Shown here in pieces: positions 51,311-64,000 of a stretch of DNA of 64,000 nucleotides. The DNA is from Chryseobacterium glaciei. GTDB lineage: Bacteria > Bacteroidota > Bacteroidia > Flavobacteriales > Weeksellaceae. A program made the position numbers and the translations under genes. The notes under the pieces were generated by a model. That model saw only the letters and a program-made list of their open reading frames with translations. It made no database searches and was not told the DNA's origin. The stretch lies in the NCBI RefSeq assembly GCF_001648155.1, contig NZ_CP015199.1:124001-188000 (forward strand), in the 5' to 3' direction. Position 1 is the stretch's first letter. The number at the start of each line of letters is the position of its first letter.

Positions 51311-51383
51311 TACCCTAGCCCCGATTGCAGAGAAAATCCTTTTTTGAAAAAAAAGATTGTAACGGAAAGCGGGAAATAGCTCC
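51311..51383 (-). repeat. Dispersed intergenic repeat with CTATTTCCCGCTTTCCG
   Basis: On the minus strand GGAGCTATTTCCCGCTTTCC leads to TTACAATC, a T-rich spacer, then TTTTCTCTGCAATCGGGGCT. This arrangement resembles a repeat I recall from Flavobacterium and Chryseobacterium intergenic DNA. It produces a spurious minus-strand open frame (51250-51438) that is not a gene. Confidence 0.55.
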
Positions 51384-57655: not shown

Positions 57656-60600
57656 CTACATCGTCTCCATTTTGAAACTCATGCTTTCGATCACTTTCAA
57701 GATTGCTTCCACTGTATCCATTGATGTTAAACAAGGAACACCGTTCTCAACACTCATTCTTCTGATTTGGAAACCATCTCTTTCAGACTGTTTTCCTTTT
57801 GTCATCGTGTTGACAACATACTGAACTTTTCCTTTTTGGATAAGATCAATTAAGTTAACGCTGTCTTCTCCGATTTTGTATCCGATCTTACAAGGAATTC
57901 CCTGTTCTGCAAAGAATTTTGCAGTTCCTTCCGTTGCCCAGATTCTGAAACCAACTTCGTGGAATCTTGCTGCCAAATCTGCCGCTTCCTGCTTGTGTTT
58001 ATCTGCTACCGTGAACAAAATAGATCCGTGCATCGGAACTTTTCTTCCTGCTGCAACCAATCCTTTGTAAAGCGCTTTTTCCAACGTTGTGTCTTTCCCC
58101 ATAACCTCTCCTGTAGACTTCATTTCTGGGCCTAGAGAGATGTCAACCTTCGTTAATTTAGAGAAAGAGAACACAGGAACTTTTACATAAACTCCTTCTT
58201 TGTTTGGAACCAATCCGTTTTTGTAACCTAAATCTTTCAGTTTCTGACCTAAAATTGCTTTTGTAGCAAGGTTTGCCATCGGAACTTCTGTGATTTTAGA
58301 TAAGAAAGGAACTGTTCTTGATGAACGTGGATTTACCTCGATTACAAACACATTTCCTTCAAAAAGAACGTATTGAATATTCATTAATCCAATCACATTC
58401 AATCCTTTAGCTAATCTTTGAGTGTAATCTACCAAAGTATCGATTTCTGCCTGAGAAACATTCTGTGGCGGATATACTGCGATTGAATCTCCTGAGTGAA
58501 CTCCAGCTCTTTCGATATGCTCCATAATTCCTGGAATCACCACCGTTTCACCGTCGCAGATTGCGTCTACTTCCACTTCTCTTCCTGTGATATAACGATC
58601 GACCAAAACAGGCTGATCAGGACTTGCGTCTACCGCAAATTCCATATAGTGCGCCAATTCTTCTTCAGTGTATACAATTTCCATTGCTCTTCCTCCCAAA
58701 ACGTAGCTTGGACGAACCAAAACCGGATATCCGATTTCGTTCGCAATCACAATTGCTTCTTCTTTTGAAGTCGAAGTTTTTCCTAAAGGCTGAGGAATTC
58801 CCATTTCCTGAAGGGCTTTTTCAAACTTATCTCTATTTTCAGCTCTGTCAAGATCTTCCAATGAAGTTCCAAGGATTTTTACTCCGTAACTTGCCAATTT
58901 ATCAGCTAAGTTAATTGCTGTCTGACCTCCGAACTGAACAACAACTCCCATTGGTTTTTCAAGATCGATGATGCTCATTACATCTTCTTCCGTTAAAGGC
59001 TCGAAGTATAATTTATCTGAAATTGAGAAATCTGTAGAAACTGTTTCAGGATTATTATTGATGATAATCGCTTCGTAACCCAATTCTTTGATCGCCCAAA
59101 CCGAGTGAACCGTTGCGTAATCAAACTCAACTCCCTGCCCGATTCTGATTGGCCCTGAACCTAAAACGATGATCTTTTCTTTATCTGTAATGATACTTTC
59201 GTTTTCTTCTTCGTAAGTTCCGTAAAAATATGGTGTTTCGCTTTCAAATTCAGCAGCACAAGTGTCTACCATTTTGTAAACCGGAATTACGCCATTTTCT
59301 TTTCTGAAGTTATACACTTCTCTTTGAGTAGACTCCCATAAGTGAGCGATATTCTGATCCGAGAAACCTAATTTTTTAGCTTTAATTAAAATTTCTTTGT
59401 CGAATTTATGAGCAGCGATTGTTTTTTCGAAATCAACTAATTTCTTTAATTTCCAGATGAAGAATTTATCAATTTTACTCCATTCTACGATTTGTTCCCA
59501 GTCGTAACCTCTTCTTAAAGCATCACAAATGATGAACAATCTTTCGTCATCACAAACTCTGATTCTTCTTTCGATATCTTCATCTGTTAAAGCTGCAGCC
59601 TGTTTTGTTTTTAAACCTAAATGTCTCAAGCCTGTTTCCAGAGAACGAACTGCTTTTTGTAAAGACTCTTCGAAATTTCTTCCGATTGCCATTACTTCAC
59701 CTGTTGCTTTCATCTGTGTTGACAATCTTCTGTCTGCTGTTTCGAATTTATCGAATGGGAATCTTGGGAATTTTGTTACCACATAATCCAAAGCCGGCTC
59801 GAAACAAGCATATGTTTTACCTGTAACCGGATTCATGATTTCATCTAAAGTTAATCCTACAGCAATTTTTGCAGCAATTTTAGCGATCGGATATCCTGTC
59901 GCTTTTGATGCTAAAGCTGATGAACGAGAAACTCTTGGGTTAACCTCGATGATATAATATTCGAATGAATGTGGATCTAAAGCCAACTGTACGTTACATC
60001 CTCCTTCAATTCCTAATGCTCTGATGATTTTTAATGAAGCATTTCTCAACATCTGATATTCTCTATCAGAAAGCGTTTGAGAAGGTGCCACAACGATTGA
60101 GTCACCAGTGTGAACTCCAACCGGATCTATATTTTCCATGTTACAAACCACAATCGCGTTGTCGTTTGCATCACGCATTACTTCATACTCAATTTCCTTG
60201 AAACCTGCAATTGATCTTTCGATAAGACATTGTGTAACAGGACTATATTTTAGACCTAATTCTGCAATTTCTTTTAATTCGATTTCATTTGAAGCGATTC
60301 CACCTCCTGTTCCACCCATTGTAAAAGCTGGACGAACAATCACAGGATAACCAATTTCTTCAGCAAAGCTTAATGCTCCTTCAACCGTTGTTACGATATC
60401 AGATTCAGGAACGGGTTCGTTCAATTCTCTCATCAATTCACGGAAAAGATCTCTGTCTTCCGCTCTGTTGATCGCAGAAAGTGTAGTTCCAAGAACCTCA
60501 ACTTTACATTCTTCAAGAATTCCTGATTTTTCCAATTCTACCGCCATGTTCAGACCTGTTTGCCCACCAAGTGTCGGTAAAAGTGCATCCGGACGCTCTT

Positions 60601-60835
60601 TTCTGATGATGTGACTTACAAACTGAAGTGAAATCGGCTCGATATATACTTTATCAGCGATTTCAACATCCGTCATAATCGTCGCAGGGTTTGAATTAAT
60701 CAAAATCACCTTGTACCCTTCTTCTCTCAAAGACAGACAAGCCTGCGTTCCTGCGTAATCAAATTCTGCTGCCTGACCAATGATAATAGGTCCTGAACCG
60801 ATTACTAAAATTGTTTTTATGTCGTTTCTTTTCAT
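57656..60835 (-). CDS. carB: Carbamoyl-phosphate synthase large subunit
   Basis: 1059 residues, full length. Two homologous halves, each starting with an ATP-grasp pre-domain ([40 protein letters not shown]). The first ATP-grasp carries [14 protein letters not shown] and [20 protein letters not shown], the second [15 protein letters not shown] and [17 protein letters not shown]-terminal MGS-like allosteric domain ([14 protein letters not shown] to [16 protein letters not shown]) is present. With CarA it makes carbamoyl phosphate for pyrimidines and arginine. It is separated from carA by a transposase-like gene and REP-like hairpins. Confidence 0.97.
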
Positions 60836-61019: not shown

Positions 61020-61466
61020 TTACCACAGATATTTTTCATCAAATTCAACTCCATGAGATTTTAGCAAATTCTTATATTCATCCTCAAAAGATTCAGTTTT
61101 ATGATGCTCTTTTTGATTTTTAATATAATTAATGACCATATCCTTTTCTCTTTCTGAATAGGTGAATGCGCCGTAGCCATTCTGCCATTCTTCAAAATCA
61201 GGAAATAATCCGCTTTGCTTGATCCATAAGTTGGTTGAAACCTTTATATCTTTTACAAAACTGCTTAAAGAAACTGATGGATGCAGATCTGTAAATAAAT
61301 GAACATGATCCGGCATTCCATTAATCCTATAAAGTTTGCAGTTTTTATTTTTTACAATTCCCCAAATATATTTGTATAATTCATCTTCATGCTCAATATT
61401 CAACACAAGTTTTCTGTGCTTCGTACTGAAGACAATCTGATAATATATTTGACGGAATGTTGACAT
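61020..61466 (-). CDS. IS200/REP-associated tyrosine (Y1) transposase
   Basis: 148 residues, the usual length of IS200-like TnpA. Start FRQIYYQIVFSTKHRKLVLN, HUH-type motif MPDHVHLF, and the catalytic tyrosine in MVINYIKNQKEHHKTESFED. Such single-strand transposases recognise hairpins at element ends. The adjoining crowd of GAA-loop hairpins suggests a REP-associated (RAYT) type rather than a free IS; no TnpB is present. It is inserted between carA and carB in the same orientation, and no terminator is seen around it. Confidence 0.85.
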   Translation of the reverse strand: MSTFRQIYYQIVFSTKHRKLVLNIEHEDELYKYIWGIVKNKNCKLYRINGMPDHVHLFTDLHPSVSLSSFVKDIKVSTNLWIKQSGLFPDFEEWQNGYGAFTYSEREKDMVINYIKNQKEHHKTESFEDEYKNLLKSHGVEFDEKYLW

Positions 61467-61505: not shown

Positions 61506-62579
61506 TTACTTTTTGAAATCCTCCATCAGAGTGATGAAATCATCAAACAAATAGTTTGCATCTTCAGGACCTGGACTAGCTTCCGGGTGATACTGCACTG
61601 AGAAACAAGGATGAATTTTATGCTTCAGACCTTCGTTTGTTCTGTCGTTCAATGCGATGTGTGTTTCGATTAAATCTGTATCTTTCAAACTTTCCTGATC
61701 AACAGCGTAACCATGATTTTGAGAAGTAATTGCTACTTTATTTTTTTCTAAATCTAAAACAGGGTGATTTCCTCCTCTGTGACCGAATTTTAACTTGAAA
61801 GTTTTCGCTCCACAAGCCAATCCTATTAATTGATGTCCTAAACAGATTCCGAAGATTGGAACTTTTCCTAATAATCCACGGATCATTTCCAACGCTTGTT
61901 GATTGTCTTCGGGGTCACCAGGCCCGTTTGACAACATAATTCCGTCCGGATCCATTAATAAAATCTCTTCTGCTGTTGTATCGTGAGAAACCACTGTGAT
62001 GTCGCAGTTTCTTTGAGATAATTCTCTGATAATCCCTAATTTAGATCCAAAATCTACCAACACAACTTTCAAGCCTCTACCCGGATTTGCATAAGAAGTT
62101 TTTGTAGAAACTGTTTCTACCTGATTTGTTGGAAATGTTGTTCCTTTTAATTCTGCAATAACTGTATTTTCGTCAGCATCAGCATTTACAATTTTACCTT
62201 TTACGACTCCAGAATTACGTAGAATTCTTGTCAGTCTTCTTGTATCGATTCCTGAAATTCCTGAAAGGTTTTTCTTTTTAAATAATTCATCTAAAGTAAT
62301 CTGAGTACGGAAATTTGAAGGCAAATCACAAACTTCTTTTACAATAAGACCTTTGATAGCCGGCTCGATACTCTCATAATCATCTCTATTAATCCCATAG
62401 TTTCCGATTAGCGGATAAGTCATACAAACAATCTGACCGCAATATGATGGATCAGAAATCAATTCTTGATAACCCGTCATTCCGGTATTGAAAACCACCT
62501 CTCCTGCAGTCTCCAATTCTGTTCCGAAACCTTCTCCATGAAACACTTCACCGGATTCCAGTATTAACTTTTTCTTCAT
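61506..62579 (-). CDS. carA: Carbamoyl-phosphate synthase small subunit
   Basis: 357 residues. The N-terminal CarA domain (LILESGEVFHGEGFGTELET, FNTGMTGYQELISDPSYCGQ) is followed by a class I glutamine amidotransferase: MLSNGPGDPEDN, nucleophile FGICLGHQLIGLACG, and HGG...VQYHPEASPGPEDA with the His-Glu pair. It supplies ammonia to CarB. It lies ~120 bp after pyrB, in the same direction. Confidence 0.97.
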   Translation of the reverse strand: MKKKLILESGEVFHGEGFGTELETAGEVVFNTGMTGYQELISDPSYCGQIVCMTYPLIGNYGINRDDYESIEPAIKGLIVKEVCDLPSNFRTQITLDELFKKKNLSGISGIDTRRLTRILRNSGVVKGKIVNADADENTVIAELKGTTFPTNQVETVSTKTSYANPGRGLKVVLVDFGSKLGIIRELSQRNCDITVVSHDTTAEEILLMDPDGIMLSNGPGDPEDNQQALEMIRGLLGKVPIFGICLGHQLIGLACGAKTFKLKFGHRGGNHPVLDLEKNKVAITSQNHGYAVDQESLKDTDLIETHIALNDRTNEGLKHKIHPCFSVQYHPEASPGPEDANYLFDDFITLMEDFKK

Positions 62580-62621
62580 TTTTATTTAGATTTTCTTTTT
62601 ATTCTTTCTATTTTTTGTCTT

Positions 62622-62666
62622 CCATGAATTTCATTCATGGCTATTAATATTTCGCCCCCTTGGGGC
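62622..62666. repeat. REP-like hairpin pair between carA and pyrB
   Basis: CCATGAAT-TTC-ATTCATGG at 62622-62640, linker CTATTAATATTTC, then GCCCC-CTT-GGGGC at 62654-62666. Same 3-nt-loop design and linker as the cluster at 60855-61011. Confidence 0.7.
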
Positions 62667-62699
62667 TCAGAAACTTTTTACTTTTAACTTGGCTCTTTT

Positions 62700-63590
62700 T
62701 TATTTAAAAGTATGTCCTTCTTTTTCTAAGGCTTCTTTTAAAATGGCCATTCTTGCGAAGACTCCGTTCTGCATTTGTTTGAAAACTCTTGAACGCTCGC
62801 ATTCTACTAAGTCTGTATCAATTTCAACTCCTCTGTTGATTGGTGCCGGGTGCATGATAATCGCTTCTTTTTTCATTGCCTTTTCTCTTTCTTTCGTCAA
62901 ACCGTATTTTCTGTGGTAATCTGAAGCTGAGAAACTCATTTTAGCATCGTGTCTTTCGTGTTGGATTCTCAATAACATTAAAACATCAACATCTTTTATC
63001 ATTTCATCTACAGAAAGATATGTTCCGTTGATTAAAGCGCCTTCGTCAAACCAATCTTCTGGTCCTGAGAAGTAAACTTTAGCACCTAATCTTCTTAATG
63101 CTTCTGCATTTGAATTGGCAACTCGGCTGTGTTTTACATCTCCTACAATTCCTACTTTTAAACCTTCAAATTTCCCAAATTCCTGATAAATTGTCAGTAA
63201 ATCCAGCATACATTGTGAAGGGTGATTTCCCGTTCCGTCTCCTCCGTTGATTACAGGAATTTTAATATCTTTTAATTCATCAAAATATCTGTCTTTCTTA
63301 TCTCTTATCACAACAAGATTTACTCCTATACTTTCAATCGTTTTTACCGTATCATAAAGACTTTCTCCTTTGTTTACCGAACTGTGAGATGCATCGAAAG
63401 GAACCACTTGTAATCCTAATTTTCTTTCGGCAATATCAAAACTTGTTTTCGTTCTTGTACTGTCTTCAAAAAAGAGATTTGAGCAAAAAACTTCTCCTTC
63501 AATTTTGGCAGTTTTTCCATTCGCAAAAGCCATCGCTTCAGCCAGTATACTGTTGATTCTCTCGGTGCTTAGTTCTGTAATCGTAAACAT
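62700..63590 (-). CDS. pyrB: Aspartate carbamoyltransferase catalytic chain
   Basis: 296 residues; the ATG at 63590 is fixed by an in-frame TAA 9 nt upstream. Carbamoyl-phosphate loop [66 protein letters not shown] and [10 protein letters not shown] carry the family's substrate ligands. It makes carbamoyl-aspartate, the first committed step of UMP synthesis. No pyrI regulatory chain is seen. Upstream lies a leader with ORF and terminator (63610-63745). Confidence 0.96.
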
Positions 63591-63609
63591 AATATCTTAA
63601 ATTTTTTAC

Positions 63610-63639
63610 AAAAAAAAAGCGAAGAAAATATCTTCGCTT
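63610..63639 (-). terminator. Attenuator terminator in the pyrB leader
   Basis: On the minus strand AAGCGAAGA (63639-63631), loop TATTT, TCTTCGCTT (63625-63617), then seven further T residues. It is a perfect intrinsic terminator 27 nt before the pyrB ATG and inside its own transcript, so it must be passed to express pyrB. The leader ORF stop lies directly before its left arm. Confidence 0.85.
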
Positions 63640-63640
63640 A

Positions 63641-63709
63641 CTATAAATAAATATCGTAAAGGGCGTCTACGCCCGGTAATTCTAATGATATAAATACTGT
63701 GTTATTCAT
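63641..63709 (-). CDS. Candidate pyrB leader peptide (22 codons)
   Basis: ATG at 63709 to TAG at 63643-63641, in the sense direction of pyrB. The peptide begins MNNTVFISLELP and ends DALYDIYL. The ATG is about at the expected transcription start. A ribosome stopped at the TAG would cover the left arm of the terminator. No repeated regulatory codons are present, so a pyrimidine mechanism would act through polymerase pausing (as in enteric pyrBI), not through charged-tRNA sensing. That it is translated is inference. Confidence 0.5.
   Translation of the reverse strand: MNNTVFISLELPGVDALYDIYL
63661..63674 (-). promoter_or_regulatory. Candidate pause hairpin in the pyrB leader
   Basis: GGGCGT-CT-ACGCCC, a 6-bp GC-rich stem in the leader transcript. 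It is followed in the RNA by a U/A-rich stretch (63660-63641), then by the terminator. This order of pause hairpin, U-rich tract and terminator is that of pyrBI attenuation. Confidence 0.5.
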
Positions 63710-63715
63710 TAGGTG

Positions 63716-63745
63716 CAAAGATACTATAAATTCTGAAACTGACAA
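63716..63745 (-). promoter_or_regulatory. pyrB-carAB promoter
   Basis: TTG (63745-63743) and TATCTTTG (63723-63716) on the minus strand with a 19-nt spacer, a near-perfect Bacteroidota -33/-7 promoter. The start point should fall close to 63709-63711. Confidence 0.75.
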
Positions 63746-63834
63746 AATCAAAGTTTCAAATAAATTAAAAAACTTTAATCATTCCTTACTTTTCATTTTT
63801 AAATACTATTTTTGTTAAAACTCAAACCTTGTTT

Positions 63835-64000
63835 ATGGACTTAAAAGACAAAATGATTCTCAGCATCATTCAGGAGGACTCTACTTATTCTGTGAAAGAC
63901 ATTTCAGAAAAGATAGGTCTTACCTTTACTCCGACTTATGAAAGAATCAAACAGCTAGAGAAACAGGGAATTATTGAGAAGTATGTAGGTCTATTGAATC
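63835..64000 (+). CDS. Lrp/AsnC-family regulator (partial, runs off the window)
   Basis: 55 codons from ATG at 63835 to the window edge. The N-terminal Lrp HTH reads LKDKMILSIIQEDSTYSVKD, ISEKIGLTFTPTYERIKQLE and KQGIIEKYVGLL. The C-terminal effector (RAM) domain would lie beyond the end. A -7 box TATTTTTG lies at 63807-63814. It is divergent from pyrB and may control amino-acid-related genes; whether it affects pyrB is unknown. Confidence 0.85.
   Translation, partial: MDLKDKMILSIIQEDSTYSVKDISEKIGLTFTPTYERIKQLEKQGIIEKYVGLLN

Follow-up and report, generated by a model that had tools for sequence, protein, structure and literature searches.

A putative ribosome-controlled transcription attenuator upstream of pyrB in Chryseobacterium glaciei and its bacterial family

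We analyzed a stretch of 64,000 nucleotides from Chryseobacterium glaciei (contig NZ_CP015199.1), referred to here as the window, in which pyrB is followed by carA and, beyond an insertion-sequence gene, by carB (Table 1). The PyrB protein encoded in the window has its closest named match, at 98%, in C. limigenitum. A carA match was found near pyrB in all 109 loci from the genus (some genomes being counted twice), and an Lrp-family match fell inside the fetched stretch at 97 of these 109 loci. In the window itself, the Lrp-family regulator gene lies at 63838-64000 and is divergent from the pyrB leader, and the IS200/IS605-type transposase gene (61020-61466) is oriented in the same direction as carA and carB, which flank it. 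Elsewhere in the window, a Flavo-1 RNA is located at 51313-51380.

Read 5' to 3' on the reverse strand, the pyrB leader consists of a TTG, 19 nt, the box TATCTTTG, the sequence CACCTA, a short ORF, one base and an intrinsic terminator, with 26 nt, T run included, between the terminator stem and the pyrB ATG. A preliminary description of this DNA had listed a promoter, a 22-codon ORF, a GC hairpin, an AU-rich run and a terminator, all in sense and ahead of pyrB, and we were able to confirm every one of these elements. It had also placed the beginning of the ORF at the predicted start point of transcription, which proved to be near the mark rather than exact. In Flavobacterium psychrophilum, the -7 box occupies positions -12 to -5 (PMC9723704); by analogy, with a start 5 nt past the box, transcription of the window leader is predicted to begin at 63711, i.e., approximately 2 nt before the AUG and not at the AUG itself. 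This predicted start would make the leader ORF one of a small number of near-leaderless mRNAs in the phylum, given that leaderless mRNAs make up 5.5% in F. psychrophilum (PMC9723704) and 5' UTRs under 10 nt make up 3.7% in Bacteroides thetaiotaomicron (PMC7366714).

Table 1. Positions of the pyrB leader elements and of the neighboring pyrimidine genes in the window.
Feature	Position	Strand	Remarks
-33 element TTG	63743..63745	-	19 nt 5' of the -7 box
-7 box TATCTTTG (TAnnTTTG)	63716..63723	-	Bacteroidota-type promoter
Predicted transcription start	63711	-	Predicted position, 2 nt 5' of the AUG; effectively leaderless
Leader ORF MNNTVFISLELPGVDALYDIYL	63641..63709	-	22 codons; ATG at 63709; stop TAG 63643-63641
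Start-codon hairpin, 5' arm CTAATGA	63706..63712	-	Pairs with TCATTAG
Start-codon hairpin, 3' arm TCATTAG	63682..63688	-	Pairs with CTAATGA
GC hairpin GGGCG-TAGA-CGCCC	63661..63674	-	Possible pause hairpin
AU-rich tract UUUACGAUAUUUAUUUA	63644..63660	-	Candidate UTP-sensitive pausing stretch
Intrinsic terminator AAGCGAAGA-TATTT-TCTTCGCTT	63617..63639	-	9-pair stem, 1 nt after the TAG
Remaining T run of the terminator	63610..63616	-	From sequence
pyrB, aspartate carbamoyltransferase catalytic chain	62700..63590	-	NF002032, 357 bits (cut-off 263); ATG at 63590
carA	61506..62579	-	3' of pyrB; probably on the same transcript
carB	57656..60835	-	IS200-type transposase gene between carA and carB

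Taken singly, the pieces of the leader are near chance expectation: the window contains six promoter motifs (2.4 expected) and two cases of a box followed by 6 nt and an ATG (1.7 expected), with one terminator found in the interval 62000-64000 (0.9 expected). It is by its conservation that the locus rises above chance. In a genus sample of 98 genomes, a PyrB match was obtained in all 98; with the omission of G062, in which the match was broken and partial, the box, ORF and terminator were present in 97 of 97 upstream regions, and the leader frame reached the terminator in each of them. The family sample comprised 120 genomes, 88 of which carried this PyrB at E 1e-60 (12 from the genus and nine from a divergent genus, g17). 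Sixty of the 77 non-genus PyrB places were read upstream, the rest of g17 being added later, and the three elements were found at 59 of these 60 loci in 24 genera (58 parsed leaders and L138), the lone exception (L168) being a member of g17. The ORF and terminator are thus kept in relatives, a check that the preliminary description had proposed.

The parser used to read the leaders demanded the motif TAnnTTTG and found 155 of 156 leaders outside g17. Within the 4-7 nt that it allowed between box and ATG, the spacing was 6 nt in 148 of the 155 parsed leaders, 5 nt in six and 7 nt in one. A TTG was present 19 nt ahead of the box in 94 of the 97 genus leaders; of the 58 parsed family leaders, just 28 had one at a distance of 18-22 nt. 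The unparsed leader, L138, nonetheless contains a TAnnTTTG box. An in-frame UAG lies 16 nt ahead of its stem, earlier than the usual stop, and approximately 120 bases separate its terminator from pyrB, as against the usual 25 or so; it is perhaps a decayed leader.

Retention of the open frame was evaluated in 23 further genera of the family, on a set of 55 distinct leaders that does not include L138. In 54 of these the frame reached the terminator, with at most 7 nt between the stop and the stem, where dinucleotide shuffling would predict 13.9 +/- 3.2; the counts for the other two frames were 6 and 17. In L144, the stop is 11 nt ahead of the stem. Owing to the relatedness of the genomes, a count per genus is the safer guide, and every distinct leader reached the terminator in 22 of the 23 genera. 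A stop beginning exactly 1 nt ahead of the called stem was seen in 33 of the 55 leaders (8.4 expected). This offset varies with the definition of the stem end: the window leader gives -4 with the 9-pair stem and -1 with the extended stem. For a stop-to-terminator control drawn from ordinary genes of the window, just three of nine terminators could be assigned to a gene, too few for a comparison. In 11 of the 58 parsed family leaders the frame enters or crosses the terminator instead, and it continues into the terminator in 13 of 155 leaders overall; a frame running into or through the terminator would block it equally.

Leader length was 19-26 codons in 48 of the 58 parsed family leaders, and the encoded peptides differed widely across genera (e.g., MKRTFPLDD..., METLHPTIQ..., MCRLENIF..., MNLVQNLAT...). 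This retention of the frame in spite of peptide divergence is the strongest evidence, on comparative grounds, that the ORF is probably translated and that the place where it ends is likely to be relevant.

A test for bias in synonymous substitutions had been suggested, and within the genus its outcome was the opposite. Amongst 30 genus loci, synonymous codon change (same amino acid) amounted to 0.5% in the leader versus 36.8% in pyrB. The changes that do occur are located in codons 3-5, 10, 14-15 (the hairpin loop) and 22-23, and most of them alter residues. The freezing of synonymous sites indicates that it is the nucleotides, whether as RNA or DNA (hairpin arms, AU tract), that are conserved in the genus and not the peptide; selection at the level of the peptide within the genus was therefore rejected. 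The frozen stretch of the genus leader (63644-63709) also takes in the UUACC ahead of the GC hairpin.

The leader RNA (121 nt) was more stably folded than its shuffled counterparts (z = -4.2; 0 of 200 shuffles as stable). RNAalifold analysis of 41 leaders yielded the terminator as its sole prediction, with three of nine pairs changed on both sides yet kept, so that the compensatory changes foreseen for this stem were indeed observed. When leaders were registered on the AUG, the GC hairpin paired in 161 of 220 cells at one register, as compared with 25-51% at eight slid registers, this register having been picked after inspection of the single-sequence hairpin results; the single-sequence significance of the hairpin is weak (8 of 55 leaders at p <= 0.05). 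In 53 family tracts, the AU-rich stretch had a mean U content of 0.49, versus 0.30 ahead of the hairpin, and a G+C content of 0.16.

A further hairpin, which takes in the start codon and had been missed by the preliminary description, occurs in part of the family. Stems of at least 5 pairs that include the AUG were present in 26 of the 55 distinct leaders of the family, where 4.5 would be expected, in the versions CTAATG/CATTAG and CCAATG/CATTGG, and were unseen in the remaining leaders. Such a structure would be expected to oppose translation and, in those 26 of 55 leaders, it counts against the model developed below. The covariation evidence for the GC and start-codon hairpins is mixed. In 25 leaders of equal length, 75.7% of cells were paired, a share that none of 500 column shuffles attained (72.4% in the shuffles), and doubly changed cells exceeded those in shuffles (2 of 500 as high), whereas the number of pairs with a double change was ordinary (212 of 500 shuffles as high), as was the covariation score of 0.132 (101 of 500), a 3-column slide of the partner giving a higher value, 0.156.

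An upstream complement of at least six bases to the left arm of the terminator was found in none of 85 distinct leaders, less often than in shuffles. With no such exact complement in the 85, antiterminator pairing of the trp or his type was rejected; the switch is then probably a ribosome lying over the left arm, and an alternative RNA fold is unlikely.

To survey the distribution of the leader, we used a covariance model made from 41 of the leaders, which renders the result partly circular, and ran Infernal with stricter filters. At E below 1e-3, the model gave 77 matches in 76 of the 120 family genomes, each directly before pyrB, and none before any other gene in those 120 genomes. Outside g17, 79 genomes carry this PyrB and 76 of them were matched; G121, G114 and G112 gave a weak match or none, yet their leaders were readable. 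Weaker matches occurred in the family at E 0.004-0.1, including one at E 0.03 in the genome of the window. In a class sample of 295 genomes, the only strong matches were to three genus members, with nothing convincing in the 292 non-genus genomes, and four further matches had E values of 0.006-0.009.

None of the nine g17 genomes (L285-L293) gave a match to the model. An open frame nevertheless runs through the pyrB terminator in eight of the nine, against 0.6 expected; in the ninth, L288, a run-through terminator was not seen either. The frame measures 72-97 codons from stop to stop, is ambiguous between two frames in L291 and, by eye, has a probable UUG start approximately 60 nt from the box. 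The g17 leader precedes the same gene in the same family as the window leader, but its terminator differs and the PyrB proteins are only 51-53% identical. In having its terminator inside an open frame, it is like pyrL of Escherichia coli.

PyrR had been named as a form of control that might be assumed for pyrB in Bacteroidota, an assumption that fails in the family genomes tested. None of the 30 family genomes tested, that of the window included, reached the PyrR cut-off (best 34 bits versus 138). At gathering score, Rfam yielded no match in the leader and no PyrR element in the window, and PyrR control of the window pyrB was accordingly rejected. In the order's other families, all 14 tested genomes had PyrR, with pyrR adjoining pyrB, and the leader and PyrR were mutually exclusive in the tested sample. 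Amongst the 30 PyrR-less genomes, six are also without this PyrB and two belong to g17. In all, this PyrB was absent at E 1e-60 from 32 of the 120 family genomes, the six just mentioned being those tested for PyrR; such genomes may have no pyrimidine synthesis or may use another enzyme. In the pyrR-pyrB regions of other families, no PyrR-type RNA element was detected in 20 loci, and no attenuator was discernible by eye ahead of pyrR in 11 outgroup loci; PyrR would there be at most a candidate regulator of pyrB.

Attenuation of pyrBI in E. coli is not known to need a regulator protein, and the window leader would be like it in this. The E. coli pyrBI/pyrL leader (NC_000913.3) shares with the window leader a sense ORF before pyrB, a GC hairpin, a U-containing tract and a terminator within reach of a translating ribosome. 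By eye, pyrL has 44 codons, an AGGA before its AUG and an ORF that passes through the terminator, and its hairpin (GCGTCT/AGACGC) is separated from the terminator stem by 38 nt. In the family leaders, by contrast, the AUG is approximately 2 nt from the predicted start, the stop is usually at the terminator base and the gap between hairpin and terminator is 15-28 nt in 51 of 55. The window peptide gave no local alignment with the E. coli pyrL peptide at E up to 100, a weak test for sequences so short. Judging from the leaders themselves, an origin independent of the enteric pyrL seems likely.

Short leader ORFs before biosynthesis operons have been described in the same phylum, i.e., in the proposed attenuators of F. 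psychrophilum amino-acid operons (PMC9723704), and short leader ORFs have also been proposed as attenuators amongst the sORFs of B. thetaiotaomicron (PMC7366714); pyrB does not occur in the main text of either. Leader-peptide attenuation as such is consequently not new, since it has already been proposed for Bacteroidota amino-acid operons (PMC9723704). A pyrB attenuator in Bacteroidota was not described in the literature searched. Amino-acid attenuation typically relies on cognate codons and rival hairpins, neither of which was seen in the pyrB leader. By eye, the leader peptides contain no run of codons for an amino acid of the pathway, the product of which is not an amino acid. Corynebacterium and Sinorhizobium likewise have attenuators with leaderless leader peptides, in which the 5' UTR of the leader ORF is short or absent. 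Those cases concern amino-acid operons under control of the trp or ilv type.

Taken together, the data are best read as an attenuator that would extend across one Bacteroidota family and be pyrBI-like and effectively leaderless. Comparison of the leaders shows selection on the open frame, on the terminator and on where the one stands relative to the other; translation of the ORF, occlusion by the ribosome, pausing and the UTP signal are what we infer beyond this. Polymerase would start approximately 2 nt 5' of the AUG of the leader, then transcribe the short ORF. If the AU tract were crossed fast, the ribosome would lag behind, the terminator hairpin would form and transcription would end. If instead polymerase were slowed there, with low UTP as the most plausible cause and the GC hairpin as a possible aid, the ribosome would catch up and reach the leader stop codon, where its footprint would cover the left arm of the terminator and permit read-through into pyrB. 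Of the pyrBI logic previously suggested for this locus, the translation-linked attenuator is well supported (frame retention in 23 genera, the stop at the terminator, covariation, a GC hairpin in a fixed place and no antiterminator); the UTP step is suggested by the AU-rich tract, the gene controlled and the missing PyrR. In E. coli, a terminator that directly follows a stop codon was almost fully repressed, with a similar effect reported for pyrBI (PMC4824070), and the pyrL pause was sequence-dependent, with neither a NusA effect nor rescue by compensatory changes (PMC9291695). Documentation of transcription-translation coupling in Bacteroidota was not found in a search of the literature. Overall, we consider it probable that pyrB and carA are governed by a ribosome-controlled transcription attenuator, with UTP as the most plausible signal.

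All of the direct evidence concerns the frame and the terminator and none of it the signal, and a ribosome-controlled attenuator might therefore respond to something other than UTP, whether to translation itself (e.g., initiation on the near-leaderless mRNA or the supply of a charged tRNA) or to a peptide that stalls the ribosome at the stop. The final codons are often those for Ile, Tyr, Phe and Asn, which would suit such a signal, but they are also U/A-rich, as a U tract would be, and the operon makes pyrimidines. An arrest peptide or a single tRNA is, moreover, difficult to reconcile with a peptide that varies among genera, at its C terminus too (IYFI, IFYI, YCYY, IFIF, IYCY). On balance, a signal other than UTP seems unlikely, if well short of negligible. 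The near-frozen synonymous sites of the genus leader, the UUACC without an assigned role included, would also fit an RNA that serves as the target of a protein or metabolite, or as a small RNA in its own right, with the ORF in a secondary role. We regard this as improbable, since the sequence diverges across genera and the frame stays open, the leader matches no Rfam family at gathering score and PyrR is missing.

With a promoter, an ORF and a terminator of its own, the leader could even be taken for a small-protein gene that stands before pyrB by chance. The peptide, however, is unconserved between genera, the terminator is placed where a terminating ribosome would disable it, 13 of 155 frames continue into that terminator and all 77 strong matches to the model precede pyrB, which together make a chance neighbor very improbable. 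As for a PyrR-dependent attenuator, the 14 of 14 genomes with PyrR come from other families of the order, and set against 0 of 30 over the cut-off in this family, and a window devoid of an Rfam PyrR element, they leave the idea with practically no credence.

The attenuator controlled by the ribosome, with UTP as its signal, may be drawn together with the other observations into a wider reading, which we consider as apt to prove wrong as right. The family would control pyrimidine synthesis without a regulator protein, by means of an effectively leaderless leader ORF with its stop built into the terminator, and UTP-dependent polymerase speed would decide the arrival of the first ribosome. Such control would have taken over where PyrR is missing, would have arisen apart from enteric pyrBI and would exist in two layouts within one family. 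It would also demand tight coupling of transcription and translation in Bacteroidota, a phylum without Shine-Dalgarno-led initiation. If true, the pyrB leader would represent UTP control without a repressor, separate from that of enteric bacteria, and its variants (a stop at the terminator, a frame that runs through the terminator, or PyrR instead) would constitute a comparative series for the gain and loss of such control. It would, in addition, provide a natural reporter of transcription-translation coupling for Bacteroidota.
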